Assembly (NCBI RefSeq): GCF_003324185.1
Contig: NZ_PXUP01000005.1
Coordinates: 1 to 64,000 of the forward strand
DNA from: Faecalibacterium prausnitzii
GTDB lineage: Bacteria > Bacillota > Clostridia > Oscillospirales > Ruminococcaceae
DNA: 64,000 nucleotides
Direction: 5' to 3'
This document shows positions 32,289 to 52,464 of the stretch, one piece after another. The notes beneath the pieces were generated by a model. The model saw nothing but the letters and a program-made list of their open reading frames with translations. It was not told the origin of the DNA and searched no databases. A program made the translations under genes and the position numbers. Numbering within the stretch: the first letter of the stretch is position 1; each line of letters begins with the position of its first letter.

Positions 32289-32879
32289 ATGGAAACTGTG
32301 AATGGATGCCTGAGCGACCGGCTGGATGAGATGGAAGCGGCAATCCGGAAAACGTCCTTCCGCAAGGGAACCGGCAGAGCCAACGAGGTGAACTACTGGG
32401 TTTTCGACTATCCACCAGAAAAAGAGCTGGAAGTTCGTGCTCGAATCGAGTATATGAAAGGCAAAAATGCCCGTGGCGATGATGACTTTGATCTGGTGGT
32501 ATTTGATCTCTACGATGTCATCATTGATTTTCTGGAGAAGAAGCGCTTTTTGGAAAAGTGTTATGACTTTGAAAAGAAAAACGGGATGGAGCGGATCACC
32601 AAAGCGGTTACCAACGCCATGAAGATCAATGACAACGACAGCCTCATCGTGCAGTATATCAAGGAACATACGCCGGAGAACGCCATCGTGTTTTTGACGG
32701 GTATCGGAAAGTGCTATCCGATTTTGCGGTCCCATAAGGTTCTGAACAACCTGCATCAGGCATTTGTCCGCTGCCCGGTCGTAATGTTCTTTCCGGGCAC
32801 CTACAACGAACAGGAACTGATTTTGTTCAACGAGATCAAGGACGATAACTATTACCGGGCATTCCGGCTGGTGAAATAA
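32289..32879 (+). CDS. brxB: BrxB, DUF1788 protein
   Basis: This 196-aa protein matches the DUF1788 family: LDEMEAAIRKTSFRKGTGRA near the start, NYWVFDYPPEKE near 35, and VVMFFPGTYNEQELILFNEI near the end. BrxB is an essential core BREX protein of unknown biochemical role, thought to help assemble the complex. It sits between brxA and brxC with a gap of 18 bp to brxC. Confidence 0.9.
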   Translation: METVNGCLSDRLDEMEAAIRKTSFRKGTGRANEVNYWVFDYPPEKELEVRARIEYMKGKNARGDDDFDLVVFDLYDVIIDFLEKKRFLEKCYDFEKKNGMERITKAVTNAMKINDNDSLIVQYIKEHTPENAIVFLTGIGKCYPILRSHKVLNNLHQAFVRCPVVMFFPGTYNEQELILFNEIKDDNYYRAFRLVK

Positions 32880-32897: not shown

Positions 32898-35800
32898 ATG
32901 CAGATCAAGGAGATGTTCCGTAAGGAGATCGACCGTGAACTTCAGGGTGTTATCGTAGTCGGTCAGGGCGCAGAGACCAATGTTGCACAGGAACTGGAAG
33001 AGTATGTGGTGACCCGTGAATTGCAGCGGCACTTTGCGGATTTTTTTGCGGCTTATAAAAAAGGTATTCTGGGCACCACGCCGAAAATGGGCGTATGGAT
33101 CTCCGGCTTCTTTGGAAGCGGTAAATCTCACTTTTTGAAGATCCTGTCCTACCTGCTGGAAAACAAGCAGGTGGGCGACAAGCACGCACTGGATTTCTTC
33201 ATCGACGATAAAAAGATCACGAACCAGATGGTTCTGGCAGATATGAAGTTGGCAGCAGACACGCCAACGGATGTGATCCTGTTCAATATCGACTCCAAAA
33301 GCGAATCCAACAGCAAGGAGAACAAGGATGCCATCGTGAACGTGTTCCTGAAGGTGTTCAACGAAATGCAGGGGTTCTGCGGCTCCATGCCCTACCTTGC
33401 GGATTTGGAACGCCACCTTGCTGAGGCAGACCAGCTTGCTACGTTCAAGGAAAAATTTGAGGATGCCTATGGCGATGCGTGGGAGGATTCCCGGCAGGAC
33501 TTTGATTTTATTCAGGACACTGTTGTGGAGGTTCTGGTGGGAATGGGCTTTATGAGTGAGCCCGCAGCCCGCAACTGGTGCGAAAAGGCAACGGAGCCCT
33601 ACCAGATCAGCATCGAGGACTTTGCCAAGCGTGTGAAGGCTTATCTGGATAAGAAGGGCAGCAACCACCATGTTGTCTTTTTGGTGGATGAGATCGGTCA
33701 GTATATCGGCGATGACTCCAAGCTGATGCTGAACCTCCAGACTGTGACCGAGGAACTGGGCAAGGAATGTCAGGGCAAGGCGTGGGTCATTGTGACCTCT
33801 CAGCAGGATATCGACTCCATCACTAAGGTGAAGGGCAACGATTTCTCTAAGATCCAGGGTCGCTTTGACACCCGTTTGTCCCTGTCTTCTGCAAACGTGG
33901 ATGCCGTTATCAAAAAGCGTATTCTGGAAAAGACCGACACCGCAGCCCAGAGCCTGCGGCTGATCTACGACCAGAAGGGCACCATCATCAAGAACCTCAT
34001 TGTTTTCAACGACGGTGTGGAGAAAAAGCTGTATGCCAATGCGGAGGATTTTGCAGAGGTGTACCCCTTTGTGCCCTATCAGTTCAACCTTCTGGCAAGT
34101 GTGCTGACCAGCATCCGTACCCACGGTGCATCCGGTAAGCATCTGTCCGAGGGTGAGCGCTCTATGCTGGCACTGTTCAAAGAGTCTGCCATGCAGCTGA
34201 TGAACGAAGAAACCGGTGCCATCGTACCGTTCCATAAGTTCTACGATGCGCTGGAAAACTTCCTTGACCACAGCCACAGCAGCGTGATCATTCGTGCCTA
34301 TGATAACAGCTACATCAACCCGGAAAAGAAGGAAAAGGACGTCTTTGCCATCAACGTGCTGAAGACCCTGTTCCTGATCAAATATGTGGTGGAGATCGAG
34401 GCAAATGTGGACAACATCACCAGCTTGATGATCTCCAACATCGACGATGACCGCCTTGCCCTGAAAGCAGAGGTGGAGGAAGCCCTGAAGGTGCTGATGC
34501 GCCAGATGCTGATCCAGAAAAACGGCAGCGTCTATGTGTTCCTGACCGATGAGGAGCAGGAGATCAACAACGAGATCGAAAAAGAAAACGTGGAGATGCT
34601 GGAAGTCCTTACCAAGATCGCAGAGATGATCTTTGAGGACATCTTCCCCAGCAAAAAGTACCAGTATCCGGCATTCGGCGGACGGTACACCTTCCCGTTC
34701 AACCAGATGGTGGATGACCGCCCCTACAAGGCAAATCAAAGCTACGATATCGGGCTGCGTGTGCTGACCCCGTGGTATGAGGGTGGTGTGGAGGACTCTA
34801 CCCTGCGGATGATCTCCGGGCAGGGCAAGGAAGTGCTGGTGGCACTGCCCAACGATGACTCCTTCCTGACCGAAATGCGCGCCTACCTGAAGGTCGAGCG
34901 ATTCCTGCGCAAAAACACCTCGGTGCAGCTTGCAAAGTACGAGGCCATCAAGGAAGCCAAGCGTGTGGAGATGCGGGAGCGCAACAGCAACGCCAAGCTC
35001 TACCTGACCGAGGCTCTGAAGGATGCCACCATCTATGTGAACGGCGATGTGCTGCGTACCTCCGGCAAGGAAGTGAACAGCCGCATCAATGAGGCAATTG
35101 GTCGTCTGGTGCAGACGGTCTACCATAAGCTGTCCTACATTACCGCTCCCATGGGCGAGACCGACATCCGCAAGCTGTTCCGAAGCAGCAACCAGCTCTC
35201 CCTCACTTTGGAGGATAGCTCTGAGGCAAATGTCCATGCGCTGGATGACGTTCTGCAATTTATCGGCGGCAACTCCCGGATGCACATGAAGACCTCCATG
35301 AAAACCATCAAGGATCGGTTCATGAAAGCTCCCTACGGCTTTGTGGAGGACGATGTGCAGTGGCTGGTGGCACGGCTGTTCAAACGGGGCGACCTTGCCT
35401 TTACGGTGAACGGCGAAAGTGTGAACGCCAACAATCGCACCGAGGAAGAGCTTGTGGGCTACATCACCAAAAAGCAGTTTGTGGACAAGCTGCTGATGGA
35501 GGTCCGTGTCCGGGTGCCGGAAAAGCAGAAAAAGGCTGTCCGCACCATTATGAAGGAGCTGTTCAACGTGCTGCCCACGGCAGAGGACGAGGACACCATG
35601 ATGAGCGAGTTCCGGCGCTACTGCGAGCGCACCATCACCTCCATCGACCGTCTGGAGCCCCGGTATCAGCTTTACGCCTACCCCGGCAGACAGGTCCTTG
35701 CCGAGGGCAAAAAGCTGATGAGCAGCCTGCTGCAGATCAACGCTCCGCTGGAATTTTTCAAGGAAGTCAGCGACGGGCAGGATGAGCTGCTGGATTTTGG

Positions 35801-36554
35801 TGAGGATTTTGAGCCGGTGCAGAAATTCTTCAGCCCCAACAGCGAGCAGGAGCAGATCTTCCGCCGTGCACTGGATATGCTGGACATTTACGATGACAGC
35901 AAGACCTATATCGTGAACACCGCACTGGAGGATGTTGTCCGGCAGATGCGCAGCATCGTGGGCATGAAAACACCCTACCGTGAGATCCCCAAGCTGCCGG
36001 AGCTGCGGGAAAAGTTCATGTCCCTGTACAACGAGATTCTGGAGGAGCAGTCGGCACCGGTGGTAAAAGCCATCAAGGACGACCGCAACCGTGTGCTGGA
36101 GGTGCTGAACGATAAGCCCTACAAGGACGCAAAGCACAGTGGCTACATGGAGCGGTTCGAGGAGCTGCTGGACGGTGCTGTGCACTGCAACAATGTGTCG
36201 GTGCTGCGCAGCTATCAGGATAAGTCCGATGCGCTGAAGATCCGTCTGCTGAACGAGATGGTAGACGAGGACAACCGCTTGGCACAGCAGGCACTTGCAC
36301 AGGCAGAAGCGGAACAGAAGCGTTTGGAAGAGGAAGCCCGCAAGCGTGGCGAGACGGTGGCTGTGCCGCGGCCGAAGACGGAACAACCTGCCGTCAAGAT
36401 GCGCAATACCAAAAATCTCTCCATCAAAACGGTGGCACGGGCAGCGTCCTGGCGGCTGGAAAGTGCAGAGGATGTGGATAAATATCTGGATGCCCTGCGG
36501 CAGAGCCTGCTGAAGGAACTTGCCGATGATTCGATCGTGAATGTGGAACTGTGA
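32898..36554 (+). CDS. brxC: BrxC, BREX P-loop ATPase
   Basis: This 1218-aa protein has the BrxC N-terminus (MFRKEIDRELQGVIVVGQGA) and Walker A GFFGSGKSHFLK near residues 70-80, with HHVVFLVDEIGQYIGDD as a Walker B region near 257. The length is typical of BrxC. It is thought to be the AAA+ motor of the BREX complex that senses or remodels target DNA together with PglX and PglZ. The GC-rich gene ends 7 bases before the AT-rich zinc-ribbon gene, marking a sharp compositional border. Confidence 0.95.
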   Translation: MQIKEMFRKEIDRELQGVIVVGQGAETNVAQELEEYVVTRELQRHFADFFAAYKKGILGTTPKMGVWISGFFGSGKSHFLKILSYLLENKQVGDKHALDFFIDDKKITNQMVLADMKLAADTPTDVILFNIDSKSESNSKENKDAIVNVFLKVFNEMQGFCGSMPYLADLERHLAEADQLATFKEKFEDAYGDAWEDSRQDFDFIQDTVVEVLVGMGFMSEPAARNWCEKATEPYQISIEDFAKRVKAYLDKKGSNHHVVFLVDEIGQYIGDDSKLMLNLQTVTEELGKECQGKAWVIVTSQQDIDSITKVKGNDFSKIQGRFDTRLSLSSANVDAVIKKRILEKTDTAAQSLRLIYDQKGTIIKNLIVFNDGVEKKLYANAEDFAEVYPFVPYQFNLLASVLTSIRTHGASGKHLSEGERSMLALFKESAMQLMNEETGAIVPFHKFYDALENFLDHSHSSVIIRAYDNSYINPEKKEKDVFAINVLKTLFLIKYVVEIEANVDNITSLMISNIDDDRLALKAEVEEALKVLMRQMLIQKNGSVYVFLTDEEQEINNEIEKENVEMLEVLTKIAEMIFEDIFPSKKYQYPAFGGRYTFPFNQMVDDRPYKANQSYDIGLRVLTPWYEGGVEDSTLRMISGQGKEVLVALPNDDSFLTEMRAYLKVERFLRKNTSVQLAKYEAIKEAKRVEMRERNSNAKLYLTEALKDATIYVNGDVLRTSGKEVNSRINEAIGRLVQTVYHKLSYITAPMGETDIRKLFRSSNQLSLTLEDSSEANVHALDDVLQFIGGNSRMHMKTSMKTIKDRFMKAPYGFVEDDVQWLVARLFKRGDLAFTVNGESVNANNRTEEELVGYITKKQFVDKLLMEVRVRVPEKQKKAVRTIMKELFNVLPTAEDEDTMMSEFRRYCERTITSIDRLEPRYQLYAYPGRQVLAEGKKLMSSLLQINAPLEFFKEVSDGQDELLDFGEDFEPVQKFFSPNSEQEQIFRRALDMLDIYDDSKTYIVNTALEDVVRQMRSIVGMKTPYREIPKLPELREKFMSLYNEILEEQSAPVVKAIKDDRNRVLEVLNDKPYKDAKHSGYMERFEELLDGAVHCNNVSVLRSYQDKSDALKIRLLNEMVDEDNRLAQQALAQAEAEQKRLEEEARKRGETVAVPRPKTEQPAVKMRNTKNLSIKTVARAASWRLESAEDVDKYLDALRQSLLKELADDSIVNVEL

Positions 36555-36561
36555 GGTGTGT

Positions 36562-37023
36562 ATGTCGGATACATCATTTAAAATCTGTATGGAGTGCGAT
36601 AGCGATGGCTATGTCACATTCGAGTGTCCGTTTTGTGCATCGTCTTTTGGCCTACGTGCCGATGAAGTCAAAACTGAAGAAGGAATGGTCAATGAACTAT
36701 TCTGTCCTTATTGCGGTTTAACAAAGGATTCTGGTGCGTTCTGGCCAAAGGAAGTAGTACAGCAGGTATGTGATATTGCAAGAAACTACGTTGCAGACCA
36801 ACTAAATGAGATGTTTGGAAAACTAGCAAAATCAACAAATAGACATCGCGGAATTGTAAAAATGACTTATAAACCCTTAAAGAAGGTTGGAATTTCAAAA
36901 TTGCGTAGCCAAGATGGAACAGAAGTTCCATTTAAGTGCGATTGCTGCAATCGACATGTAAAAGTGATTTATGGTGTAGGAGAATCTATGACGTACTGTC
37001 CGTACTGCGGGGTTAATATATGA
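36562..37023 (+). CDS. Zinc-ribbon protein inserted in the BREX operon
   Basis: The ATG at 36562 follows GAGGTG and lies just after the brxC stop; the frame is open earlier but overlaps brxC. The 153-aa product has three CxxC pairs or more: ICMECDSDG, FECPFCASS, LFCPYCGL, then a helical middle and C-terminal FKCDCCNRHV plus MTYCPYCGVNI. Two zinc ribbons thus flank a helix-rich core. It is not a known core BREX component. Its stop overlaps the next start (ATGA), so it is coupled to the 279-aa protein. The pair is AT-richer than the core genes and is likely an accessory defence module. Confidence 0.75.
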   Translation: MSDTSFKICMECDSDGYVTFECPFCASSFGLRADEVKTEEGMVNELFCPYCGLTKDSGAFWPKEVVQQVCDIARNYVADQLNEMFGKLAKSTNRHRGIVKMTYKPLKKVGISKLRSQDGTEVPFKCDCCNRHVKVIYGVGESMTYCPYCGVNI

Positions 37024-37859
37024 ACGGATTAAAAGATTTGAAATTTCTGAGTTTGGATTTTCGTAGAAAATCTAGCCAGTTACTGAATAGCGATGAGCAT
37101 AATGCTGATGTAAATCTTTGCCGGTTTGTGGATTTCATTGAAAGCACGCCTACTTTGCGTGGCATTGTACATGACGTGGCAGATAGAACAGAGTATGATT
37201 TTAGAGAATGTTTTCTGTTTGAGGATGGAAGCTGGATTGAAATACAGATCCCCGTTGACGAAAAGGAACATATCAAAGCAATATATGACTATGCAACATA
37301 TATTGCAAATTCTGAAACGGAGAGTATTGTGTATCATTCACGCAGGTATCCATGTAGAAGCAGCAAAACGGAAGAAGTTATACAGAATTACCTGAATGAT
37401 TCCATAAAACCGCTGATTGATTTTATCAATGATAGCATTTCAAAGGAAATTATTCTTATGCAAGAGGAAAATCCAGGAGTCATGACCCAGAACATTGGAA
37501 CTGTGAATGGGAATGTTGTGCAGCAGCAAAGCGGAAATATTGCCATCAATACAAACACTGGCGTCTCCGGTGAAGATTTGAACGGTTTGATTGAAAAAAT
37601 TATCTCCTCTCTGTCTGAAATCAAGGATGTTGACACTGAAGAAGTGGACAGTGTAAAGGATGATCTCGAATCATTGCAGGAGCAGATTCAGTCTCCCACA
37701 CCTAAAAAGAACCGGATGCAGAAAGCCTTAAATGGAGTTCAGAAATTCTTTAGCGATTTTGGCATGAAAGTGGCAGTTACAGTAGCAGCAAAAGTGGTTA
37801 CCAGCCAAGATTGGACTGCACTGATCCAACAAGCACAACTGTTTATCGGAAACTTATAA
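37020..37859 (+). CDS. Unknown 279-aa protein, partner of the zinc-ribbon protein in BREX
   Basis: The N-terminal ~145 residues (RFVDFIESTPTLRGIVHDVA, then YDFRECFLFEDGSWIEIQIP) form an unrecognised domain. A segment MTQNIGTVNGNVVQQQSGNI near 160 has the N-x-G-x-x-x-G-x-V pattern seen in several bacterial defence proteins, among them some AbiTii-like ones. The C-terminus has amphipathic helices ending in AALIQQAQLFIGNL-like sequence (residues about 262-279), possibly membrane-associating. It begins with a 4-base overlap. I infer a sensor or effector role; no enzyme motif is visible. Confidence 0.65.
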   Translation: MNGLKDLKFLSLDFRRKSSQLLNSDEHNADVNLCRFVDFIESTPTLRGIVHDVADRTEYDFRECFLFEDGSWIEIQIPVDEKEHIKAIYDYATYIANSETESIVYHSRRYPCRSSKTEEVIQNYLNDSIKPLIDFINDSISKEIILMQEENPGVMTQNIGTVNGNVVQQQSGNIAINTNTGVSGEDLNGLIEKIISSLSEIKDVDTEEVDSVKDDLESLQEQIQSPTPKKNRMQKALNGVQKFFSDFGMKVAVTVAAKVVTSQDWTALIQQAQLFIGNL

Positions 37860-37871
37860 TTTGAGGATGGA

Positions 37872-40800
37872 ATGATGAACAAAACAGCCATTAAAAACTT
37901 TGCCATCTGGGCACGGAACAAGCTGATCGCAGATATCTGCTACCGTGCCGGACTGATGGGCATTACCGAAAAGGGCATTGCAGACCCTCTGCCCCAGAGC
38001 ACGATGGATGCCCAGTTCTACGATATTGGCGCAGCGGAGCCGTATCTGGTGGCAGGCGAAGCCATCAAGCAGCGGCGGCAGCTTGTGAGCGCCATCCGGG
38101 AGAAGGAGGCAGATACCGATTACGCCACCGCCTACCAGTACATCATGGAGGAGGTTGCCTACACATGGTTCAACCGCCTGATCGCTGTGCGGTTCATGGA
38201 GGTCAACGACTATCTGCCCTCCCACCTGCGGGTGCTTAGCTCCGAGAGCGGCAAGGTGGAGCCGGATCTGGTCACCACCCCCTTTGATGCCGAGCTTTCC
38301 TTTACCGCCGAGGAAGAAGCCCAGATCATCCAATGGAAGCAGGATAACAAGCTGGACGAGCTGTTCCGCTTTTTGTTCATCAAGCAGTGCAATGCGCTGA
38401 ATGAGATCCTGCCCGGTCTGTTTGAAAAAACCACCGACTACACCGAAGTCCTGCTGAACCTTTCGGTGGTGGATCAGGAGGGAGTGGTGTACAAGCTGAC
38501 CCACGATATCCCGGAAAAGGACTTCAACATCAAGCAGGGCGGTCAGGTGGAGATCATCGGCTGGCTGTACCAGTACTACAACACCGAGCCCAAGGCCGCC
38601 GCCTTTGCCAAAAACGGCAAGATCACCAAGGAGGAGATCCCGGCGGTGACCCAGTTGTTCACCCCGGATTGGATCGTCCGCTACATGGTAGAGAACAGCC
38701 TTGGCCGCCTGTGGGTGGAGGGTCACCCGGACAGCGACCTGCGGAAAAACTGGAAGTATTATCTGGACGAAGCCCCGCAGGAGCCGGAGGTGCAGGCAAA
38801 GCTGGCGACGATCCGCAAGGAGTACGCCGCCCTGAGCCCGGAAGACCTGACCCTTATCGACCCCTGCATGGGTTCCGGGCATATTCTGGTCTATGCCTTT
38901 GACGTGCTGATGCAGATCTACGAAAGCGTGGGTTACAGCCAGCGGGATGCCGCCAAGAGCATTCTGGAACACAACCTCTACGGTCTGGACATTGACGACC
39001 GTGCCTATCAGCTTGCCTACTTTGCCGTAATGATGAAGGCACGGCAGTACAACCGCCGCATCCTCAACGGCGAAAACACCTGCCACGTCTACGCCATTCA
39101 GGAGAGCAACCCCATCAACCGGGCTCACCTCAAGTTCTTTGGGGCGGGCCTTTCGGACTTGGAAAAGAACACCGCCAAAATGCAGTTGGATGGCTTGCTG
39201 GATATCCTGACCGATGCCAAGGAGTACGGCTCCATCCTCAATGTGCCGGAGTATAACTGGGCATTGCTGCGCCGGTTTGTGGGCGGCATTGACGATGAGG
39301 TGCAGATCTCGCTGGAAAGTGCCGGTGTGGAGCAGACCGCCGAGGAACTGCAAAAGCTCATCGACCTTGGCGAGACCATGGCACGGAAGTATTGGGTCAC
39401 CTGCACCAATCCCCCCTATGCCGGAACCAGCAATCTCAGCGCCAATGTCAACAACTTTGTCAAGAAGTATTACCCCGACAGCAAGGCAGACCTGTTTGCG
39501 GTGTTTATTGAGCGCTGCCGTGCCATGACTGCCGACAACGGCTATCAGGCAATGATCACCCAGCATAGTTGGATGTTCCTGTCCAGCTTTGAAAAGCTGC
39601 GTGAAAAGATGATGCTGACCGAAACTGTCAACATGGCGCATCTGGGCGCAAGAGCCTTTGAGGAAATTGGCGGCGAAGTGGTGCAGACCACCGCCTTTGT
39701 GCGCTGTGCAAACCATGTGGAGGGCTATAAAGGCACCTATTGCCGCCTGATCGAGCCGACCTCTCAGCAGGGCAAGGAGGAGATGTTCCTTGCAGGGCAA
39801 AACCGCTATACCGCAAATCAGGATGATTTTGCAAAGATTCCGGGTATGCCAGTAGCGTATTGGGTGAGTGAAAGGATTTTTGCACTATTCTCAGGCAAGT
39901 CGTTAGGAGAATACTATGATGTAAAAGCTGGAATGTGTACTGGAGAAAATGCGACCTTTATTTTGTGCTGGCCGGAGGTTGACTATACACTTACTAATAT
40001 TTGTTCTCCGACAAAATATATGTACACAGCGCATAACAAAGGTGGCGAATACCATAAATGGTATGGAAACCGCGAACTGGTTTTGAAATATAATGATAAT
40101 GCACTGAAACTGATGGAATCCAATGCGGGATTTAGACATGATGGCAAGGAATACTATTTTAAGGAGCATATTGGCTGGAGCAAAATCACATCGGGAAAAT
40201 CAAGTTTCAGATATTTCGAGAATGGATTTACTTTTGATTCTGCTGGATTGGGTTTGTTTCCAAAAAAGAAACAAGATATGTTTCTGACTTTGGCTTTCTT
40301 GAATAGTAAGGTTGCAGAAGAACTAATAGCATTACTGAATCCGACACTGAACGTTACTCCCATGGTTGTGAAAAAGCTGCCGTTCACTGATTTGATAGTG
40401 GCAGAAAAAGCAGCTCCATTGACAGAAGATAATATTGAATTGTGCAAGGAAGATTGGGATTCCTATGAAACCTCTTGGGACTTTACTACCCACCCCCTTG
40501 TGTACTGGAGCAAGGGACTGTGGGAGCAAACCAATGTAGCTTGCATGATGGAGCATTACTATGGCTACCTGCCGGAGGCAAGCTGTCCGCTGGAAGTTTG
40601 CTATTTGATGTGGCAAGGCCAGTGCAAGGAGCGCTTTGAAAAGCTGAAAGCCAACGAGGAAGAGCTGAACCGCATTTTTATTGATATTTACGGCTTGCAG
40701 GATGAACTGACCCCGGAAGTGGAAGAGAAGGATGTGACCGTGCGCAAGGCAGATTTGCAGCGGGACATCAAGAGCCTGCTCAGCTATGCCGTGGGTTGTA

Positions 40801-41618
40801 TGTTTGGCCGATACTCTATTTATAAGGACGGTTTGCTTTTTGCAGGAGAGCCGTATTCTTTGCAGGCATTTGTGGACAAGCTGAACGACCGCCCCGGAAC
40901 AGTTTCAGCAGAGGAACTGGAGCGTGCATACCGCAATGAAGGGGTTGTGGTAGACGAGATGTTCTTCCCGGACGAAGATAATGTTATTCCCATTACCGAT
41001 GAGGAATATCTGGACGATGATATCGTTGCCCGCCTGTGCGACTGGCTGAAAGCCGTATATGGTGCAGCTACGCTGGAAGAAAACCTTAACTTTATTGCAA
41101 AAGCACTGGGCAATAAGGGCAGCACCAGCCGGGAGGTCATCCGCAATTACTTTGTGAACGACTTTTTCAAGGATCACTGCCAGACCTACTCGGTCACCGG
41201 CTCCGGCAAGCGCCCTATCTACTGGCTGTTCGACAGCGGCAAGCAGAACGGCTTTAAGGCGCTGGTCTACCTCCACCGCTACACCCCGGATACCATCGGC
41301 GCCCTGCGTGTGGACTACCTGCACAAGATGCAGCGTGTGTACGAATCCGAGATCAACCGGATGCAAGATATGATGGACCACACCACCAACGCCCGTGAAG
41401 CCGCTGCCGCCTCCAAGCGCAAGGACAAGCTGACCAAGCAATTGAAGGAGTGCCGGGACTACGACGAAAAGATCAGCCATCTGGCGCTTTCCCGCATTGC
41501 GCTGGACCTCGACGACGGCGTAAAGGTGAACTACCGCAAACTCCAGACCGCCGCCGATGGCAAGTTCTACGAGGTGCTGGCGGATAGCAAGAACATCATG
41601 GTGAAAGAGAAGAAATAA
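37872..41618 (+). CDS. pglX: PglX (BrxX), BREX adenine-specific DNA methyltransferase
   Basis: This 1248-aa protein carries the SAM-binding motif DPCMGSGHILVYAFDV near residue 330 and the catalytic NPPYAGTSNLS near 513, typical of N6-adenine methyltransferases. PglX methylates the BREX site on host DNA and is needed to tell self from phage DNA. From about 39,840 to 40,480 (residues 655-870) codon use turns abruptly AT-rich and then returns; this is where target recognition is expected, so the specificity part was probably exchanged by recombination. Start may be either of the two adjacent ATG codons (37872 or 37875) behind GAGGA. Confidence 0.95.
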   Translation: MMNKTAIKNFAIWARNKLIADICYRAGLMGITEKGIADPLPQSTMDAQFYDIGAAEPYLVAGEAIKQRRQLVSAIREKEADTDYATAYQYIMEEVAYTWFNRLIAVRFMEVNDYLPSHLRVLSSESGKVEPDLVTTPFDAELSFTAEEEAQIIQWKQDNKLDELFRFLFIKQCNALNEILPGLFEKTTDYTEVLLNLSVVDQEGVVYKLTHDIPEKDFNIKQGGQVEIIGWLYQYYNTEPKAAAFAKNGKITKEEIPAVTQLFTPDWIVRYMVENSLGRLWVEGHPDSDLRKNWKYYLDEAPQEPEVQAKLATIRKEYAALSPEDLTLIDPCMGSGHILVYAFDVLMQIYESVGYSQRDAAKSILEHNLYGLDIDDRAYQLAYFAVMMKARQYNRRILNGENTCHVYAIQESNPINRAHLKFFGAGLSDLEKNTAKMQLDGLLDILTDAKEYGSILNVPEYNWALLRRFVGGIDDEVQISLESAGVEQTAEELQKLIDLGETMARKYWVTCTNPPYAGTSNLSANVNNFVKKYYPDSKADLFAVFIERCRAMTADNGYQAMITQHSWMFLSSFEKLREKMMLTETVNMAHLGARAFEEIGGEVVQTTAFVRCANHVEGYKGTYCRLIEPTSQQGKEEMFLAGQNRYTANQDDFAKIPGMPVAYWVSERIFALFSGKSLGEYYDVKAGMCTGENATFILCWPEVDYTLTNICSPTKYMYTAHNKGGEYHKWYGNRELVLKYNDNALKLMESNAGFRHDGKEYYFKEHIGWSKITSGKSSFRYFENGFTFDSAGLGLFPKKKQDMFLTLAFLNSKVAEELIALLNPTLNVTPMVVKKLPFTDLIVAEKAAPLTEDNIELCKEDWDSYETSWDFTTHPLVYWSKGLWEQTNVACMMEHYYGYLPEASCPLEVCYLMWQGQCKERFEKLKANEEELNRIFIDIYGLQDELTPEVEEKDVTVRKADLQRDIKSLLSYAVGCMFGRYSIYKDGLLFAGEPYSLQAFVDKLNDRPGTVSAEELERAYRNEGVVVDEMFFPDEDNVIPITDEEYLDDDIVARLCDWLKAVYGAATLEENLNFIAKALGNKGSTSREVIRNYFVNDFFKDHCQTYSVTGSGKRPIYWLFDSGKQNGFKALVYLHRYTPDTIGALRVDYLHKMQRVYESEINRMQDMMDHTTNAREAAAASKRKDKLTKQLKECRDYDEKISHLALSRIALDLDDGVKVNYRKLQTAADGKFYEVLADSKNIMVKEKK

Positions 41619-41660
41619 AATACCGACTTTTGATATTAGTGCAATGGAGGAAGCTAAGAT

Positions 41661-43148
41661 ATGAGTTTAGACCAAGTAACATTAAAGACTTTGGATTCGG
41701 TAATTGGATTGTGGTGGCTTCCTGAAAATGAGAATAACAAAATTCATGGGGTGCTAGAATTAAAAGAATCTCGTTTGCGGTTGCGAGCAACACAGATGTT
41801 TGAAGGGCTACAAACCATCGAAAGAGAAATGATTCCTGCCGTTCAAGGCTTTATAGCAACAGGACTAAAGATCACACTGCTTGATTGCAAAAAGCCGAAG
41901 CAAATAATTAATATGCCTGGGATGATAGAAGTGATATTTGAGTTTTCAACTATCATTGTGGGTAAAAATTACAGCAGTGATAGAATTCAAGTAAAGTCTT
42001 TAAGATGTCGCTTCAATGGACTTGAAAAATGGCTTGGCGATATGCCAGTAGATGCCTATAAATACAAGTGCAAAGATGATCAAGAGTATGAATTCTATGC
42101 CCATGCTCGCGAACCTGAAAAATATAGTTGTTCGATCGATGATTTTACAGCTGTCATAGAGAGTAAAATCATTCTAAGTGTAAATGAACATGTTGAGGCT
42201 GGCTTTAAGAGAACAGCTAGTGTTAGTTTTTGCTTTCCAGATAGCGTAAATGTCTTTGACGCAATTAAACAAGCTTGTAAATATCGTGATTTTTTGACAC
42301 TGTGTATGGGAAATCATAATCATATATTGAGTATACAAGCAGTTGATGAAGAGGAAGATAACATAGCGGTATTGTATAATGATGAAATTAAATCGTTAGA
42401 TTTGCCGACTAATCCTGCGTATAATTGTTTGATTTCTTTTTCAGATATCAAGGATAGCTATCAGGACTGTGTCCAAACATGGTATCAAAAATATGAAGAA
42501 ATTCGTCCAATCATAGCTTATTTTGTGGATGCTTGTCAAAAGAAAAACAATATTGATTTGCCCATGGAATTCTTGAAGATGGTGCAAGCTCTGGAATCGT
42601 ATTCGCGAAGGATGAGGAAAACAACACTCATCCCACCAGAAGAACATCAAGAAAGAATAAGTCGCATAGTTAACCATTTTGATGAGAAAGATGATGACAG
42701 AGAATGGATTGCGGATGTTCTGAAAACACCAATTCTTAATGAGCCAAGCTGTTCAAAAAGAATAACCGCCTTGTTCAAGGAAACAGCGGAGGAACTTGGA
42801 ATCTCAAAGAGCAAGGCGGCGTCTTTGGCCTATAAGATCGTTGCAACACGAAATTATTATACGCATTTTAATGAAAGTTTATTGCCGGGAATCCTTTCGG
42901 AGCACGATATATTTTATTCGATTGCGCTGATGAAAAATGTTTTGAAAGTGGTTTTGTGTCGAGAATTGTCAGTGGAACTTCCAGATATGAAAGAAAAGCT
43001 AGGTAATAACTCGGAATTAGCGTTGGCTTTGGGAGAACTTGGCCTGACACCTCCATTAAAACCGTGTTCGGTAACGATTGCCGATAAAGCTAAGCCTGAT
43101 GAAATGGAGAACTCGAACGGTGGAACTGAACCTGAAACAAATCATTGA
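41661..43148 (+). CDS. ApeA-like HEPN RNase inserted in the BREX operon
   Basis: This 495-aa protein resembles ApeA: an N-terminal beta-rich domain (GLWWLPENENNKIHGVLELK near residue 15) and a C-terminal HEPN domain with RNYYTH at residues 397-402, the R-x4-H catalytic motif of HEPN ribonucleases. ApeA proteins act alone in phage defence, probably by cutting RNA and stopping growth after infection. Here the gene lies between pglX and pglZ and overlaps pglZ by 29 bases, so it is co-expressed with BREX. It is AT-richer than both neighbours, which points to later insertion. Confidence 0.8.
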   Translation: MSLDQVTLKTLDSVIGLWWLPENENNKIHGVLELKESRLRLRATQMFEGLQTIEREMIPAVQGFIATGLKITLLDCKKPKQIINMPGMIEVIFEFSTIIVGKNYSSDRIQVKSLRCRFNGLEKWLGDMPVDAYKYKCKDDQEYEFYAHAREPEKYSCSIDDFTAVIESKIILSVNEHVEAGFKRTASVSFCFPDSVNVFDAIKQACKYRDFLTLCMGNHNHILSIQAVDEEEDNIAVLYNDEIKSLDLPTNPAYNCLISFSDIKDSYQDCVQTWYQKYEEIRPIIAYFVDACQKKNNIDLPMEFLKMVQALESYSRRMRKTTLIPPEEHQERISRIVNHFDEKDDDREWIADVLKTPILNEPSCSKRITALFKETAEELGISKSKAASLAYKIVATRNYYTHFNESLLPGILSEHDIFYSIALMKNVLKVVLCRELSVELPDMKEKLGNNSELALALGELGLTPPLKPCSVTIADKAKPDEMENSNGGTEPETNH

Positions 43149-45639
43149 CCGCCTGAATGCGGAATTTGTGGGGGACACCCGCAAGCTGGTGTTCTGGTAC
43201 GATGACAAGGCAGACTTTGCCGAGGATCTGGAAAACGTGGAACTGGAAAATGCAAAGATCTACCGCCTCCAGCCCGATAACCAGTTCTATACCAAATACT
43301 TTCTGGAACGGGTGGACACCACCACCAATTACCTTGTCTACGCCCCGTTCCCCAAGCCCGATGTGCGGGAAAACCACTTGGAGGACACCCTGCTGTACTC
43401 CCGGCGGTTCTTTGCCGACCGTGCCTCACTGCTGTCGGTAGACCTTGGCATTGAGGAAAAGTATAAGCCTATCCTCGAAAAGCACATCAAGTTCTTTGCC
43501 GATAAAAAGCGCACCCAGCGGTTCTACGATCTGGAGATCGAGAACTTCAACGAGGAAAACATCCTCACCGGGCTGCTCAGCGCCATCTGCAAAGCACGCA
43601 CCTGCTCCTTTGAGGAGGTGGTGCGGATCGTGCTCACTGAGAGCAGCCTGTCGGAAAATGCCTACTTGCAGCAGTTTGAACAGTACGATCTGCTGCCGTC
43701 CTTCTGGCGGCTGTGCGAGCAGCATTTTGGCTATACGGACGTAAAACCCACGCTGGAACGGCTGCTGGTGACCCTTTTCGTCACCTATACCGCCCGCTAT
43801 GTGCAGACGGAGCTACCCGCGGCGTGGAAGTCCTTTGTCTCCTACAAGGCAGGCAACATCATTGCCTTCCTCGACAGCCTGATGAACAGCGTCCTCTACC
43901 GGGATAAGTACGATGAACTTTCGGATCATGTGGCAAAGGGGCTGAACGTCTATCAGGCGTTCTCCGGCTGCCGTGCCGATGATCTGGTGGAGTGCGATAC
44001 CTTCCTTGCGGTGGATCAGGTGCTGGTCAAGTGGCTGATGGGGCGGCTCCTTGCCGAGGATACCGGGGCGAAGCTCAACGAGCTGACCATCCCGGAGGTG
44101 TGCGAAAAGCGTGCCAAGATGCACTTTGGCAGAAAGACCGACAAGACCTACCAGTTGCTGCAAAGTGCCTACTGCATGGTGCAGGCGGCAAACTACCGCA
44201 GCGCCGAGGGCTTCAAAGCCATTGTGGACCGGTATCTGTCCGCAGATCATCAGATAGACCAGCAGTACCGGAAGTTCTACTTCTATTACGACAAGCTGGA
44301 AAACACCGAAGCCTTTGAACCGCTGCGGGAACTGGTGGAGAACATCTACACCAACGAATATCTTGCCACCCTTCTCCCGGCATGGAACGAGGGGCTCCGG
44401 CAGGAGGAAGCTTTGGCAGTGCTGCCCTTGCAGCGGGATTTCTACAACGCCAACCTGCGCTACGCCAAGGAGCGTACTGTGGTCATCATCTCCGATGCTA
44501 TGCGGTATGAGGTAGGGCAGGAGCTTTTTGCCCGGATGCAGGATGACCCCAAGTGCTCGGCGCAGTTGAGCGTGCAGTTGGGCGTGCTGCCCTCCTACAC
44601 CCGGCTGGGCATGGCTGCGCTTCTCCCGCACCGCACGCTGGAAATGACCGATGACTTTCAGGTTCTGGTGGATAGCACCCTCTGCGATACGCTGGCAGGG
44701 CGTCAGCAGGTGCTGCAAAGCTATGTGCCGGACAGTGTCTGTATCCAGTTTGACGTGATTAAGAGCATGAAGGTGGCAGACCTGCGGGATGTCCTTACCA
44801 AGCGGCAGGTCATCTACGTGTACCACAACCAGATCGATGCCCGTGGCGACAAGCCCAACACCGAGGATGAGGTGTTCAACGCCTGTGAGGAAGCCGTGCA
44901 GGAGATCATGGATCTGATCCGCCGCATCAATGGCAGCGGAAACACCCATCACTTTATCGTAACGGCAGACCACGGCTTTATCTATAAGCGAGATAAGCTG
45001 TCCGAGAGCGAGAAAATCGCAGGCAAGAGCATGGAAAATGCTTTTGTCAACCGTCGCTTTGTGGTGTCCGCTGCTCCGCTTCAGGATGACGGCATCGGGC
45101 ACATGAGCATGGGCGCAGTACTGGGCAACCAGGATGCCAAGGTGGTTTCCTACCCGGTCAGCAGCAACGTGTTCAAGGTTGCTGGCGGCGGTGCCAACTA
45201 CGTCCACGGCGGCTCCTCGCCGCAGGAGATGCTGGTGCCAGTGCTGGATATCAAAATGGAGCGTGGACATCAGGAGACCAAGAATGCAGAGATCGCACTG
45301 GTCAGCATTCTCCACAAGATCACGAATCTGATCACCTCCATGGATTTTGTCCAGTCGGAAGCCGTCAGCGATACTGTGAAACCGGCAAAGTACCGGGTGT
45401 TCTTTATCTCGGAGGACAACGAGAAGATCTCCAACGAAAACACCTATGTGGCAGACAACCGGGAGCTCAGCGCACAAAAGCGTATTTTCCGGCTGCGTTT
45501 TACCTTTAAGAACAAGAAGTACGACAAGGATAAGCAGTATTATCTTGTGGTCTATGATGAGGATACAGGTCTGGAACAGTGGCGCCATCCGGTGATGATG
45601 GATATTGCTTTTGCAGACGATTTTGGCTTTGGATTCTAA
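43120..45639 (+). CDS. pglZ: PglZ, BREX alkaline-phosphatase-superfamily protein
   Basis: The GTG at 43120 is preferred: GGAGA lies 9-10 bases ahead and the product (839 aa) then begins with the usual PglZ start, ELNLKQIIDRLNAEF. The PglZ domain shows VVIISDAMRYEVGQELF near 450 and FIVTADHGFIYKRDKL near 620, the metal-binding Asp and Asp-His of the alkaline phosphatase fold. PglZ is essential for BREX and may be a nuclease or phosphatase within the complex. Its start codon lies inside the ApeA-like gene, so the insert is tightly fitted to it. Confidence 0.9.
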   Translation: MELNLKQIIDRLNAEFVGDTRKLVFWYDDKADFAEDLENVELENAKIYRLQPDNQFYTKYFLERVDTTTNYLVYAPFPKPDVRENHLEDTLLYSRRFFADRASLLSVDLGIEEKYKPILEKHIKFFADKKRTQRFYDLEIENFNEENILTGLLSAICKARTCSFEEVVRIVLTESSLSENAYLQQFEQYDLLPSFWRLCEQHFGYTDVKPTLERLLVTLFVTYTARYVQTELPAAWKSFVSYKAGNIIAFLDSLMNSVLYRDKYDELSDHVAKGLNVYQAFSGCRADDLVECDTFLAVDQVLVKWLMGRLLAEDTGAKLNELTIPEVCEKRAKMHFGRKTDKTYQLLQSAYCMVQAANYRSAEGFKAIVDRYLSADHQIDQQYRKFYFYYDKLENTEAFEPLRELVENIYTNEYLATLLPAWNEGLRQEEALAVLPLQRDFYNANLRYAKERTVVIISDAMRYEVGQELFARMQDDPKCSAQLSVQLGVLPSYTRLGMAALLPHRTLEMTDDFQVLVDSTLCDTLAGRQQVLQSYVPDSVCIQFDVIKSMKVADLRDVLTKRQVIYVYHNQIDARGDKPNTEDEVFNACEEAVQEIMDLIRRINGSGNTHHFIVTADHGFIYKRDKLSESEKIAGKSMENAFVNRRFVVSAAPLQDDGIGHMSMGAVLGNQDAKVVSYPVSSNVFKVAGGGANYVHGGSSPQEMLVPVLDIKMERGHQETKNAEIALVSILHKITNLITSMDFVQSEAVSDTVKPAKYRVFFISEDNEKISNENTYVADNRELSAQKRIFRLRFTFKNKKYDKDKQYYLVVYDEDTGLEQWRHPVMMDIAFADDFGFGF

Positions 45640-45663: not shown

Positions 45664-47775
45664 ATGCTAATGATGGATCAGGCAGCAGAGGGAAACCGGG
45701 AAGAACTGCGCCGGAAACTGCGGGAAAACTTTGATGGTCGCATCGTCCGCAAGGATCTGACCAAAAAGATCAAGGAAGGTGCCAACGTACCGGTCTATGT
45801 GCTGGAGTTTCTGCTGGGGCAGTATTGCAGCTCGGACGATGAGGAGATCATCGAGCAGGGTGTGCAGAACGTAAAGCATATTCTGGCGGACAACTTTGTG
45901 CGCCCGGATGAGGCGCAGAAGGTGCTTTCTCAGTTGCGTCGGAACGGCAGCCACACCATTATCGATATGGTGACCGTGCATCTGGACATCAAGAAAGATT
46001 GCTTCTTTGCAGAGTTTTCCAACCTGGGGCTCTCCAATGTGCCCATTACGGACGACTACCCGGAAAAATTTGACCGTTTGCTCTGCGGCGGCATCTGGTG
46101 CATCGTTCAACTGGAATATGAATCCGAAGGTGACAGCAGCTTTGGTATGGAGGACTTTGATAGCGAACCCCGGCAGAAAAAGCAGAAAGATGTTTCGCCT
46201 ATCAGCATCCGCAAACTGACCCCCATCCAGATGCCTCATATCGATATTGAGGAAGTACGCACCGGGCGTAAAGCCTTCACGCAGGACGAGTGGATGGATG
46301 TTATGCTGCGCTCTTGCGGTTATGAGCCGGAGCAGTTGAACCAGCGGGAGAAATGGCTCCTTTTGGCTCGTATGTTACCGCTGGTGGAGAACAACTTCAA
46401 CCTCTGCGAGCTTGGACCTCGCAGCACCGGTAAATCCCACATCTATAAGGAAATCAGCCCTAACAGCATTCTGGTGTCCGGTGGACAAACGACTGTGGCA
46501 AACCTGTTCTACAACATGGGACGAAAGACAGTTGGCCTGGTGGGTCTGTGGGACTGTGTGGCTTTTGATGAGGTTGCTGGTATCAAGTTCAAGGACAAAG
46601 ACGGCATCCAAATCATGAAGGACTATATGGCTTCCGGCTCCTTTGCCCGTGGCAAAGAGGAAAAGGCAGCCTCGGCCTCGATGGTCTTTGTGGGAAATAT
46701 TAACCAGAGCGTGGATGTGCTGCTAAAAACCTCCAGCCTATTTGACCCGTTCCCGCCTGAAATGGGAACAGACACTGCATTTTTGGATCGCTTGCATTGT
46801 TACATTCCCGGCTGGGAAATCCCTAAATTCCGCCCGGAGCATTTCACCAACGACTACGGCTTCATCACGGATTATCTTGCTGAGTTTATCCGGGAACTGC
46901 GTAAGGAACAGTACGGCGATGCACTAGATAAGTATTTCCGCCTTGGTAAAAATCTGAATCAGCGTGATACGATTGCAGTGCGTAAGATCGTAGGCGGCTA
47001 TGTAAAGCTGCTGTATCCGGACGGTGAGTTTACCAAAGAGCAACTGGAGGAGATCCTTGTCTTTGCACTGGAAATGCGCCGTCGTGTGAAAGAGCAACTG
47101 AAAAAGCTGGGTGGCATGGAGTTCTATGATGTGAATTTCAGCTACATTGATCTGGATACCTTTGAAGAAAAGTTTGTGTCAGTTCCCGAACAGGGTGGCG
47201 GTAAGCTTATCCCAGATGGAATGTGCAATCCGGGACAGATCTACACTGTTTCGCGTGGAAAAAGCGGCATGATCGGTGTGTTCCGGTTGGAAAGCCAGAT
47301 GTTGCCGGGCAGCGGAAAGTTTGAACGCACCGGTCTTGGCAGCGACCGTGACTGCAGAGAATCCACCAACACAGCCTTCAACTTCCTGAAAGCAAATGGA
47401 AACCGCATCAGCGGTGGCATCAGCACGGCATCTAAGGACTACATCATCAACTATCAGGATCTTCAGGGCATCGGTATGACAGGAAAGCTGGCACTGCCCA
47501 CCTTGATTGCATTGTGCAGCATTGCCCTTGGTCGTCCCACGGTCAGTACCCTTGCAGTTCTGGGCGAGATCAGCATCAGTGGAACAATCTTGAAGGTAGA
47601 TGAGCTTGCAAACAGCCTGCAGGTCTGCCTCGATAGCGGTGCAAAGAAGGTTCTGCTGCCGATTTCAAGTGCCGTTGATCTGGGGACTGTTCCACCGGAA
47701 TTGGTGGGTAGCTTCAATCTGATCTTCTACAGCAGCGCAGAGGATGCGGTGTTTAAAGCACTTGGTGTGGAGTGA
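45664..47775 (+). CDS. brxL: BrxL, AAA+ Lon-like protein of BREX
   Basis: This 703-aa protein matches BrxL: N-terminal DUF4357-like region, AAA+ core with LGPRSTGKSHIYKE near residue 250 and CVAFDEVAGI near 298, and a Lon-like C-terminal domain from about 560. BrxL is a ring-forming DNA-bound ATPase that acts as an effector in phage exclusion. At the position where Lon proteases have the catalytic Ser (GPSAG), my hand alignment finds no Ser (GMTGKLALP), so proteolysis is doubtful here. It closes the canonical type 1 gene set. Confidence 0.95.
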   Translation: MLMMDQAAEGNREELRRKLRENFDGRIVRKDLTKKIKEGANVPVYVLEFLLGQYCSSDDEEIIEQGVQNVKHILADNFVRPDEAQKVLSQLRRNGSHTIIDMVTVHLDIKKDCFFAEFSNLGLSNVPITDDYPEKFDRLLCGGIWCIVQLEYESEGDSSFGMEDFDSEPRQKKQKDVSPISIRKLTPIQMPHIDIEEVRTGRKAFTQDEWMDVMLRSCGYEPEQLNQREKWLLLARMLPLVENNFNLCELGPRSTGKSHIYKEISPNSILVSGGQTTVANLFYNMGRKTVGLVGLWDCVAFDEVAGIKFKDKDGIQIMKDYMASGSFARGKEEKAASASMVFVGNINQSVDVLLKTSSLFDPFPPEMGTDTAFLDRLHCYIPGWEIPKFRPEHFTNDYGFITDYLAEFIRELRKEQYGDALDKYFRLGKNLNQRDTIAVRKIVGGYVKLLYPDGEFTKEQLEEILVFALEMRRRVKEQLKKLGGMEFYDVNFSYIDLDTFEEKFVSVPEQGGGKLIPDGMCNPGQIYTVSRGKSGMIGVFRLESQMLPGSGKFERTGLGSDRDCRESTNTAFNFLKANGNRISGGISTASKDYIINYQDLQGIGMTGKLALPTLIALCSIALGRPTVSTLAVLGEISISGTILKVDELANSLQVCLDSGAKKVLLPISSAVDLGTVPPELVGSFNLIFYSSAEDAVFKALGVE

Positions 47776-47790: not shown

Positions 47791-49569
47791 ATGAAAACGA
47801 ATGATAGAAAAATCACAGACCTGATGGCCACAATCCATACAGGAAAAACGCAACTTCCTGATTTTCAAAGAGGCTGGGTATGGGACGATAGTAGGATAAA
47901 AGCTCTGATTGCAAGTATCACAAATGGATATCCTGTCGGTGCAGCAATGTTTCTGGAATACGGTAATGAGAGTATTCACTTCAAATCACGAGTTGTTGAA
48001 GGGGTGCCTTCTGCAGACAAGGTGATACCGGATGAACTTATTCTGGATGGACAACAAAGACTGACATCTGTCTATTCTTCACTTTTTAGTGAGAAGGCAG
48101 TTAGAACAAGAACAGACAAAGGGCAAGAAATAGAACGCTTTTACTATATTGATATGGCCAAAGCTGTTAACAGCACGATTGACCGGGTGGATTCGATTAT
48201 TTCGGTTCCTAAGGATCGGAAAATAACTTCAGATTTTGGTCGAAAGGTTGAGCTGGATCTTTCGTCGGCATCTCAGGAATACGCTCAGAACGTGTTCCCG
48301 CTAAACATTATTCTTGATCCGAGCAAATACAGCAAGTGGCAAATGGACTATATGCAATATCATCAGTACGATTCAAATGCTGCAAAATTGTATATGGACT
48401 TTCTCTCCAAAGTAATTGTTCCGTTGGGGCAGTATACGATTCCAGTGATTACATTGGACAAGGATACCCCCAAGGAGGCGGTTTGTCAGGTCTTCGAAAA
48501 TGTCAATACAGGTGGGGTGTCGCTTACTGTATTTGAGCTGGTTACTGCCATTTTTGCAATGGATAATTTTGAACTACGCAAGGATTGGGAAGAAAGACAG
48601 AAAAAATATTTCAGTGACGACATTCTTTCGGTGACCTCTGCAACGGATTTCCTGACGGCTTGTACTCTATTATCTTCGTATAAAAAAGGCGGGACCGTGA
48701 GTTGCAAAAAGAAAGATGTGCTGAATCTGACGCTGGCGGAATACCAGCGGTATGCAGATGATTTGACGGAAGGATTTGTGGAAGCGGAAAAAATATTACA
48801 GGAAGAACGGATCTTTTCTAGTAAAGACCTGCCATATACGACGCAGTTAATTCCACTTGCAGTTCTTTGCACGTTGCTGGCAGACCATAACCGCATCAAA
48901 ACAACGAGCGTAAAAGATAAAATAAAGCAATGGTATTGGTGCGGTGTCTTTGGCGAAATGTATGGAAGCGCAAATGAAACACGCTATGTGTACGATGTGG
49001 TGGGGGTAATGGCGTGGTTGGATGACGCCAGCAAAACGCCTAAAACGGTTCAGGAGTTTTATTTTAACCCGGTGCGCTTGCTATCCTTGCAATCAAGATT
49101 GAGTGCCGCCTATAAAGGTATTATGGCACGGATCTTGAAGAATCAGTGCAAAGATTTTATCAGCGGTCGTGAAATGGACTTTACGGTTTATAAAGCAGAG
49201 AGCATAGATATTCACCATATATTTCCACGAGATTATTGTGAGAAAAAAGGTCTGCCGCGTGCAAAATGGAATTCTGTTGTGAATAAGACACCTATTACAT
49301 ATTCTACAAACCGTGAAATTGGCGGAGTAGCACCAAGCCAATATCTGACCAAGATTGAAAAGAAAGGCCAAGTCGAACCAGATATACTGGATGGCTATCT
49401 TAAGACACATTTGATCGATACGAGTGATATCCGCGCAGACCGGTTTGATGATTTCTTCATCAAGCGCGCAACTGCTATTTTGAATGAGATTGAAAAAGCG
49501 ACTGGAAAGTCGATTTCCGGTCGTGACAGTGATCTCGTAATTCAGGACTTTGGCGGAGCGCTATTATGA
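47791..49569 (+). CDS. DUF262/DUF1524 protein, GmrSD-like restriction factor
   Basis: This 592-aa protein has N-terminal DUF262 signatures (QLPDFQRGWVWDDSRI and ELILDGQQRLTS, a ParB-like fold) and a C-terminal HNH nuclease of DUF1524 type, SIDIHHIFPRDYC near residue 470. This domain pair occurs in GmrSD-type type IV restriction enzymes that cut modified phage DNA. It starts 15 bp after brxL and is probably in the same transcript. It would add a barrier against phages whose DNA modification defeats BREX. The target modification is unknown. Confidence 0.85.
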   Translation: MKTNDRKITDLMATIHTGKTQLPDFQRGWVWDDSRIKALIASITNGYPVGAAMFLEYGNESIHFKSRVVEGVPSADKVIPDELILDGQQRLTSVYSSLFSEKAVRTRTDKGQEIERFYYIDMAKAVNSTIDRVDSIISVPKDRKITSDFGRKVELDLSSASQEYAQNVFPLNIILDPSKYSKWQMDYMQYHQYDSNAAKLYMDFLSKVIVPLGQYTIPVITLDKDTPKEAVCQVFENVNTGGVSLTVFELVTAIFAMDNFELRKDWEERQKKYFSDDILSVTSATDFLTACTLLSSYKKGGTVSCKKKDVLNLTLAEYQRYADDLTEGFVEAEKILQEERIFSSKDLPYTTQLIPLAVLCTLLADHNRIKTTSVKDKIKQWYWCGVFGEMYGSANETRYVYDVVGVMAWLDDASKTPKTVQEFYFNPVRLLSLQSRLSAAYKGIMARILKNQCKDFISGREMDFTVYKAESIDIHHIFPRDYCEKKGLPRAKWNSVVNKTPITYSTNREIGGVAPSQYLTKIEKKGQVEPDILDGYLKTHLIDTSDIRADRFDDFFIKRATAILNEIEKATGKSISGRDSDLVIQDFGGALL

Positions 49570-52257: not shown

Positions 52258-52464
52258 ATGGACGAAGCGTGTGCTGATAAATACACGGAGTATCTTTCTA
52301 TCATCAAAAGCGAGATCAAGGAGATAACACAGGACTTAAGGAGAAAAATCTTATGGCGGTCGAAGTCAATTGGGAAAATTTCGCATCAAATAACAATGAT
52401 CCTGATGGTGTCCAACATAAATTCGAAAATTTGTGTCGGCAACTTTTTACCAATGATTATCTAA
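52258..52464 (+). CDS. Possible leader ORF ahead of the STAND gene
   Basis: An ATG behind GGTGGAGA opens a 68-codon frame that overlaps the STAND gene by 112 bases in another frame. The first 30 residues (MDEACADKYTEYLSIIKSEI) look like a natural helix; the overlapping part reads like a shadow of the big gene. It may be an upstream frame that sets STAND translation, or a decayed gene. Uncertain. Confidence 0.25.
   Translation: MDEACADKYTEYLSIIKSEIKEITQDLRRKILWRSKSIGKISHQITMILMVSNINSKICVGNFLPMII

Follow-up and report, generated by a model that had tools for sequence, protein, structure and literature searches.

An ApeA-type HEPN gene as probable cargo between pglX and pglZ of a type 1 BREX operon in Faecalibacterium prausnitzii

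We analysed a 64,000-nucleotide stretch of Faecalibacterium prausnitzii DNA (assembly GCF_003324185.1, contig NZ_PXUP01000005.1, positions 1 to 64,000 of the forward strand; hereafter the window), which carries a type 1 bacteriophage exclusion (BREX) operon with a gene, here called apeA, lying between pglX and pglZ at 41661–43148 on the plus strand. An earlier note, made from the sequence alone, had described this gene as an ApeA-like HEPN RNase wired into BREX. Our analysis makes it probable that apeA encodes a self-sufficient, single-gene defence RNase of the ApeA/PDC-S58 type that is docked as interchangeable cargo at the pglX–pglZ junction, a place that in related loci is either empty or occupied by other defence genes. 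Stand-alone defence genes as interchangeable BREX cargo are already known; the window is a new example and extends the list of defence genes docked between core BREX genes by one of the ApeA type. Payne et al. 2024 reportedly deals with defences that are embedded within immune systems.

The apeA gene and its product

The open reading frame (ORF) begins with ATG and encodes 495 amino acids. Judged by sequence, its product belongs to the ApeA/PDC-S58 family: the Pfam domain ApeA_NTD1 covers residues 14–274 (profile positions 2–271 of 271, E = 3e-32, 112.6 bits against a curated cut-off of 25.5) and HEPN_Apea covers residues 305–439 (profile positions 1–133 of 136, E = 5.6e-26, 92 bits against a cut-off of 24.4). 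The PADLOC model PDC-S58 matches at E = 7e-165 (547 bits, profile positions 5–446 of 452) and the PADLOC model Cas13-ApeA at E = 7e-40 (134.8 bits); an NCBIfam search of the protein gave no match. The ApeA-like assignment proposed from the letters alone is thus borne out by profile search, and the window gene is the only HEPN_Apea match in its source genome. The E. coli ApeA is reportedly from Gao et al. 2020. Proteins of the ApeA/PDC-S58 type share with the window protein both domains, the RN-x2-TH motif and the single-gene organisation; the window gene differs in lying inside a BREX operon, which no other homologue locus that we examined shows.

The RNYYTH motif occupies residues 397–402 (R397 to H402), inside HEPN_Apea and as read in the earlier note. 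Shuffling the protein at constant composition yields a bare R-x4-6-H in 71% of cases and the RNxxTH-like form in 0.6%, so it is the profile match and not the motif that counts as evidence for the family. R397 and H402 are identical in all 11 rows of an alignment of the window protein with 10 homologues found without using the motif. In a larger alignment the pair is conserved in 59 of 59 rows, a count that carries no evidence because the other 58 rows were picked by scans requiring the motif. The AlphaFold2 model of the protein (pLDDT 90.5, pTM 0.88) has a beta-rich N-terminal part and a helical C-terminal part, with low confidence over the last approximately 25 residues (471–495); none of the 10 homologues in the 11-row alignment has the C-terminal tail. 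Searches with the model found no fold match at E ≤ 0.001 in the PDB or BFVD, and a sequence search found no PDB match at E ≤ 1. A resemblance of the beta part to Hcp-like folds appeared in weak fold-search matches and was not used.

The start of apeA lies 42 bp downstream of the pglX stop codon and, as read from the sequence, is preceded at a distance of 10 nt by a Shine-Dalgarno-like GGAGG (41646–41650, plus strand), so that the gene probably has its own ribosome site. Its 3′ end in turn contains a GGAG (43106–43109) placed 10 nt ahead of GTG 43120, the probable start of pglZ (motif, spacer and GTG at 43106–43120, plus strand), and the two genes overlap by 29 bp (43120–43148), in agreement with the earlier reading of a pglZ start inside apeA. 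The PglZ N-terminus reads M-A/P-E-L in the five nearest relatives of the family, starting with ATG in loci L147, L160, L163 and L165 (L numbers are our handles for loci) and with GTG in L167; because ACG-GTG-GAA stands at the equivalent place in the window, the pglZ start seems to have shifted there by one codon. We rejected the overlap as a sign of special coupling between ApeA and BREX, since pglZ also overlaps the preceding gene at cargo-free junctions, by 28 bp in L163, by 4 bp in L144, L149 and L164 and by 1 bp in the pEFER operon. Hence the location of apeA inside the operon, on the same strand and overlapping pglZ, stands, but the idea that it is wired to BREX by this overlap does not.

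The observation that apeA is AT-richer than both neighbours also holds, with a GC content of 0.37 (0.34 at third codon positions, GC3; codons 1–455) against 0.52 (GC3 0.68) in pglX and 0.55 (GC3 0.74) in pglZ. AT-richness was rejected as a special mark of the window gene, because homologues elsewhere are often AT-richer than their surroundings, by at least 5 points relative to their own locus in 34 of 60. A second AT-rich guest, which the earlier note did not mention, is the gene pair PDC-M14A/B between brxC and pglX, with a composition similar to that of apeA (GC 0.40/0.39, GC3 0.35/0.39). The possibility that the apeA tail is a duplicated pglX 3′ end was dropped: a blastn search of 42990–43130 against BREX loci gave, besides itself, three short matches at E 0.37. 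A promoter scan of 41000–43400 on both strands found 7 sites against 4.4 (standard deviation 2.0) in shuffled sequences, and no terminator was found in this region.

By analogy with its family and with HEPN RNases such as Tha (PMC11087260), the window protein should cut RNA as a dimer and abort infection. In the window, expression of BREX would carry apeA along, with pglZ still translated, because a probable ribosome site precedes apeA itself and the apeA frame extends into the ribosome site and start of pglZ. The variable N-terminal domain would probably act as the sensor of an infection signal, upon which the HEPN domains would pair, with R397 and H402 cleaving RNA and arresting the cell, for the most part without involvement of BREX.

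Cargo at the junctions of related operons

For comparison, PglZ type A was searched for at E 0.001 in genomes of the window's family (28 of 396 matched), class (17 of 201) and phylum (23 of 204), with 22, 17 and 15 genomes, respectively, over the cut-off; the samples overlap and include the window's genome. The resulting survey comprised 51 regions from 49 other Bacillota genomes plus the window, 52 loci in total, with 14 genomes of weak or partial matches set aside and some regions cut by contig ends (e.g. L144, L166, L167, L218 and L239). Counting the window and dropping loci that lack a gene, gaps of at least 300 bp were present at the pglX–pglZ junction in 23 of 49 loci, at brxC–pglX in 9 of 45, at pglZ–brxL in 4 of 44 and at brxB–brxC in none of 41, so that, of the four junctions, pglX–pglZ is the one used most often in this Bacillota sample. 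Several of these gaps hold no clear gene: at pglX–pglZ, L234 has no ORF of 80 amino acids, L242 and L229 have ORFs of 83 and 104 amino acids and L146 is a broken locus, and at brxC–pglX, L148 has no such ORF and a broken brxC.

The pglX–pglZ inserts were examined in nine loci of the window's family; in the class and phylum samples, inserts were identified for the M14 pair only. The slot holds a Schlafen-type AlbA_2 gene in L147, L154 and L158, a DUF1016/PDDEXK gene with a 149-amino-acid ORF in L148, a HEC-02A ATPase gene with an adjacent 167-amino-acid ORF in L150, a DUF4238 gene in L151 and Septu PtuA/PtuB in L162. The nearest of the 51 fetched operons, L147 (BrxC 81% identical, PglZ 81% over the 421 amino acids on its contig), carries its Schlafen-type gene where the window has apeA and has a 12-bp gap at brxC–pglX; the cargo of the pglX–pglZ slot therefore differs even between operons that are approximately 81% identical in BrxC and PglZ. 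A hidden Markov model (HMM) of ApeA matched none of the 51 other BREX-1 loci, and the survey suggested by the earlier note thus returned ApeA at the pglX–pglZ junction in 1 of 52 loci, the window itself. The M14 pair sits in the brxC–pglX slot in the window and in L231 (51/45% identity) but in the pglX–pglZ slot in L157 (30/25%), from which we conclude that cargo changes slots. Since the pglX–pglZ slot is heavily used and its cargo differs, BREX operons are promising ground for the search for new defence genes.

Three further guests were observed in the survey. PDC-M14A/B homologues occur in 2 of the 51 other BREX loci, so the M14 pair recurs in the sample and ApeA does not. The pglX–pglZ guest of L160 (L160:7534–8196) encodes 220 amino acids with an RNLVVH motif and matched nothing in Pfam or PADLOC at E 0.001; it is possibly a second HEPN-like protein in this slot. 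In L159, the brxC–pglX guest is a TIR/SEFIR-domain gene (L159:10701–11810).

Homologues outside BREX and competing explanations

ApeA homologues were collected by several routes. In the family sample, the PDC-S58 model (PDLC05046) matched 2 of 396 genomes, one being the window's and the other a weak partial match; the class sample gave 5 matches among 391 genomes and the phylum sample 4 among 398, with the window's genome included in every count. A scan of an 84,980-species collection with the window protein alone (six peptide patterns) found no relative; with the 11-row alignment it found 162, of which 80 were kept. Viral contigs contributed 17 homologues and plasmids 13 records, and a phage collection yielded none at E 1e-5. 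Within the set, a single Listeria plasmid region stands behind both L011 and L018, L009 and L037, being of equal length, are apparently one contig, and L003, L006 and L007 are weak partial matches.

The homologues were found away from BREX. When 113 loci were searched by tblastn with the window's BREX proteins, a BREX neighbour was seen only at the window's own two loci, the other matches being a weak PglX-like one (L070) and one to the GmrSD_N protein (L031). Using HMMs built from BREX proteins of the window's family, we found BrxB, BrxC, PglZ or BrxL in none of the 111 homologue loci (L003–L113) and a PglX-like methylase in two (L070 and L096). The same models recovered PglZ in 24, PglX in 23, BrxL in 22, BrxC in 19 and BrxB in 18 of 24 control BREX loci, which is an easy control as most of the training sequences come from these loci. 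In a wider check by tblastn, the window PglZ alone matched 283 plasmid records, with Pseudomonadota, Bacillota and Actinomycetota among the matches listed. Around plasmid homologues, BREX was present at none of the 10 loci read (of 13 records, the other 3 looking like near-copies by organism and score); plasmid homologues occur beside integrases, aimR or a SIR2 gene. The earlier note had named, as an outcome counting against a link, that the same gene be found equally often far from BREX, and this is what the sample gave. It follows from the homologue loci without nearby BREX genes that the ApeA family can do without a BREX system at its own locus. Most homologues are, moreover, solitary: among 60 that are full-length with at least 1.5 kb on each side, 48 have no same-strand ORF of at least 100 amino acids within 50 bp, and the remainder have one upstream (6) or downstream (7), with 1 of these having both. 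As a separate observation, a search with a Vibrio ApeA homologue found a relative in E. coli SC418 (L246; 1 of 5426 E. coli genomes; 68% DNA identity) that stands alone between integrase remnants.

In a tree of 59 ApeA rows, all of which besides the window came from motif-based scans, the window protein groups with homologues from Listeria grayi, Bacillus marasmi and Heyndrickxia camelliae (100/99), although its long branch makes its place within this group of four less sure. The Listeria and Bacillaceae members of the group are not in BREX. The L. grayi gene lies upstream of a SIR2 gene and a gene for an ATP-binding protein, that of B. marasmi approximately 200 bp after two ORFs that by eye resemble an ATPase and a helicase, and that of Heyndrickxia has no close neighbour.

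Several points weigh against the interpretation of apeA as independent cargo. The branch of the window protein is 1.58 long and its best identity to any row of the tree is 31%, for which reason it could have adapted to BREX. The fit of the PDC-S58 model at 547 bits suggests that closer relatives exist beyond those found, and some of them may be in BREX. Near kin may have been missed by the alignment scan, since its pattern [NDE][TA]RN... does not fit the window motif ATRNYYTHF and 80 of the 162 relatives were kept. Finally, flanks of at least 5 kb are available on each side at 60 of the 97 loci that the genome and viral scans gave, and L003–L010 have only 1.5 kb; short flanks at many loci limit the count of homologues without BREX.

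Among the competing explanations, the one closest to published thinking is that the blocking of BREX by a phage sets off ApeA, much as PARIS answers Ocr, with BREX as the first line and ApeA as the suicide line. Rakesh and Krishnan 2026 (PMC12839542) proposed this role of backup effector, the same as would apply to the window protein, as a general model for HEPN, PARIS and Schlafen genes in BREX loci, and their main text names ApeA zero times. PARIS is indeed embedded in a Salmonella BREX operon (PMC11341690), and the defence given by BxaP, a HEPN protein of type 3 BREX, is likely abortive (PMC10799925). However, neither Ocr nor Gp5 triggered Salmonella PARIS when this was tested (PMC11341690), BxaP protects a strain without BREX (PMC10799925), and the ApeA family needs no BREX genes in the same locus. 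We therefore regard a BREX-failure backup as unlikely. BxaP is, as published, an independently acting HEPN guest; like ApeA it is encoded within a BREX operon and has a pglX gene as neighbour, but its HEPN domain is of the DUF4145 type, its slot is PglXI–BrxHII and its defence was tested (PMC10799925). Salmonella PARIS (PMC11341690) and BrxU in the pEFER BREX operon are likewise extra defence genes inside the operon, although different enzymes. Tha of Staphylococcus prophages (PMC11087260) is another HEPN RNase with R-x4-H and an abortive-like outcome; at 301 amino acids it has no recognisable N-terminal domain, is triggered by phage tail proteins and is prophage-carried with an inhibitor gene. 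HEPN genes of other families have been described in Pgl operons, and ApeA-family genes in restriction-modification operons (PMC3710099). The literature searched, as far as its texts were available, does not place ApeA in BREX; one paper joins ApeA, HEPN and BREX without that placement.

A nucleotide link between the two neighbours is improbable: DNA cutting by PglZ would make, or its oligonucleotide cleavage remove, the deoxydinucleotides that activate ApeA according to the title of a 2026 preprint cited in PMC13405049. The PglZ of E. fergusonii cuts DNA and cleaves pApA, pApG and pGpG (PMC12205998), and the window PglZ keeps both tested metal-site residues, its T494 and H696 aligning with T538 and H741 of the E. 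fergusonii nuclease. On the other hand, the residues whose change altered nuclease or dinucleotide activity are kept in all 23 aligned PglZ sequences, window included, and so are no special feature of the window. Furthermore, the linear dinucleotides named for PglZ are ribonucleotides, with the word 'deoxy' absent from the available text of PMC12205998, the pairing of ApeA with PglZ has been observed once, and the ApeA named in the preprint title may not be close to the window protein. There is a slim chance that PglZ sets the level of the deoxydinucleotide that switches ApeA, clearing it at rest and, when blocked or overwhelmed during phage DNA breakdown, letting it rise until the cell shuts down. 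Were this two-stage circuit true, the pglX–pglZ slot would place a sensor beside the enzyme that clears its own signal, and the nucleotide link would explain the timing of a restriction-like system relative to a suicide RNase.

That PglX or PglZ binds the RNase directly and keeps it inactive, as in a toxin–antitoxin-like unit, would fit the shared strand and operon, the 29-bp overlap and the C-terminal tail unique to the window protein among the 11 aligned rows. Yet similar overlaps exist without ApeA, and the tail looks like run-off, because its end is modelled at low confidence and runs into pglZ. ApeA is neither present in most loci of the subtype (1 of 52) nor found mainly with BREX (0 of 111 homologue loci with BrxB, BrxC, PglZ or BrxL); with BREX genes absent at homologue loci and ApeA absent from the 51 other BREX loci, we rejected a dedicated ApeA–BREX unit as the principal explanation and hold it to be very improbable. 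The least probable alternative is a decaying passenger without function: AT-richness and the long branch would be compatible with decay, but the frame is full-length, both domains are complete, the invariant catalytic residues are kept and the gene probably has its own ribosome site.

The host operon and its surroundings

The assignment of the host operon to type 1 BREX was confirmed by family models for six genes, brxA, brxB, brxC, pglX, pglZ type A and brxL, which make the system complete. All genes of the operon lie on the plus strand in the order brxA (31682–32287; Pfam BrxA, 3e-56), brxB (32289–32879; Pfam BrxB, 5e-44), brxC (32898–36554; NCBIfam BREX_BrxC, 1342 bits), PDC-M14A (36541–37023; PADLOC, 4e-44, with weak Pfam zinc-ribbon matches and homologues in L231 and L157), the adjoining PDC-M14B (37020–37859; PADLOC, 2e-106), pglX for the BREX-1 adenine methyltransferase (37872–41618; NCBIfam BREX_1_MTaseX, 1393 bits), apeA, pglZ type A (43120–45639; TIGR02687, 594 bits) and brxL (45664–47775; TIGR02653, 1032 bits). 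The region around the operon is a defence island. Upstream, on the minus strand, lies a type IV-like restriction helicase gene (27884–31042). Directly after brxL comes a GmrSD_N (DUF262) protein (47791–49569), followed by a helicase with a weak REase-type match to MTES_1575, below its cut-off (49609–51864), and a 1428-amino-acid Avs2 match (52353–56639; 654 bits) that starts approximately 4.6 kb after brxL. The pEFER BREX operon has a DUF262 gene directly before pglX.

The survey also revealed variation in pglX itself. In eight loci of the family or order (L149, L152, L153, L155, L158, L161, L164 and L228) pglX is in at least two pieces, split mostly near the position of window PglX residues 877–911, and in six of the eight (not L155 or L164) the halves are separated by a small ORF that is AT-richer. 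The split site may be an additional place for cargo or a means of exchanging the parts that set specificity. In L163, a C-terminal pglX fragment (101 amino acids, 70% identical to the end of the window PglX) lies upstream of an intact pglX.
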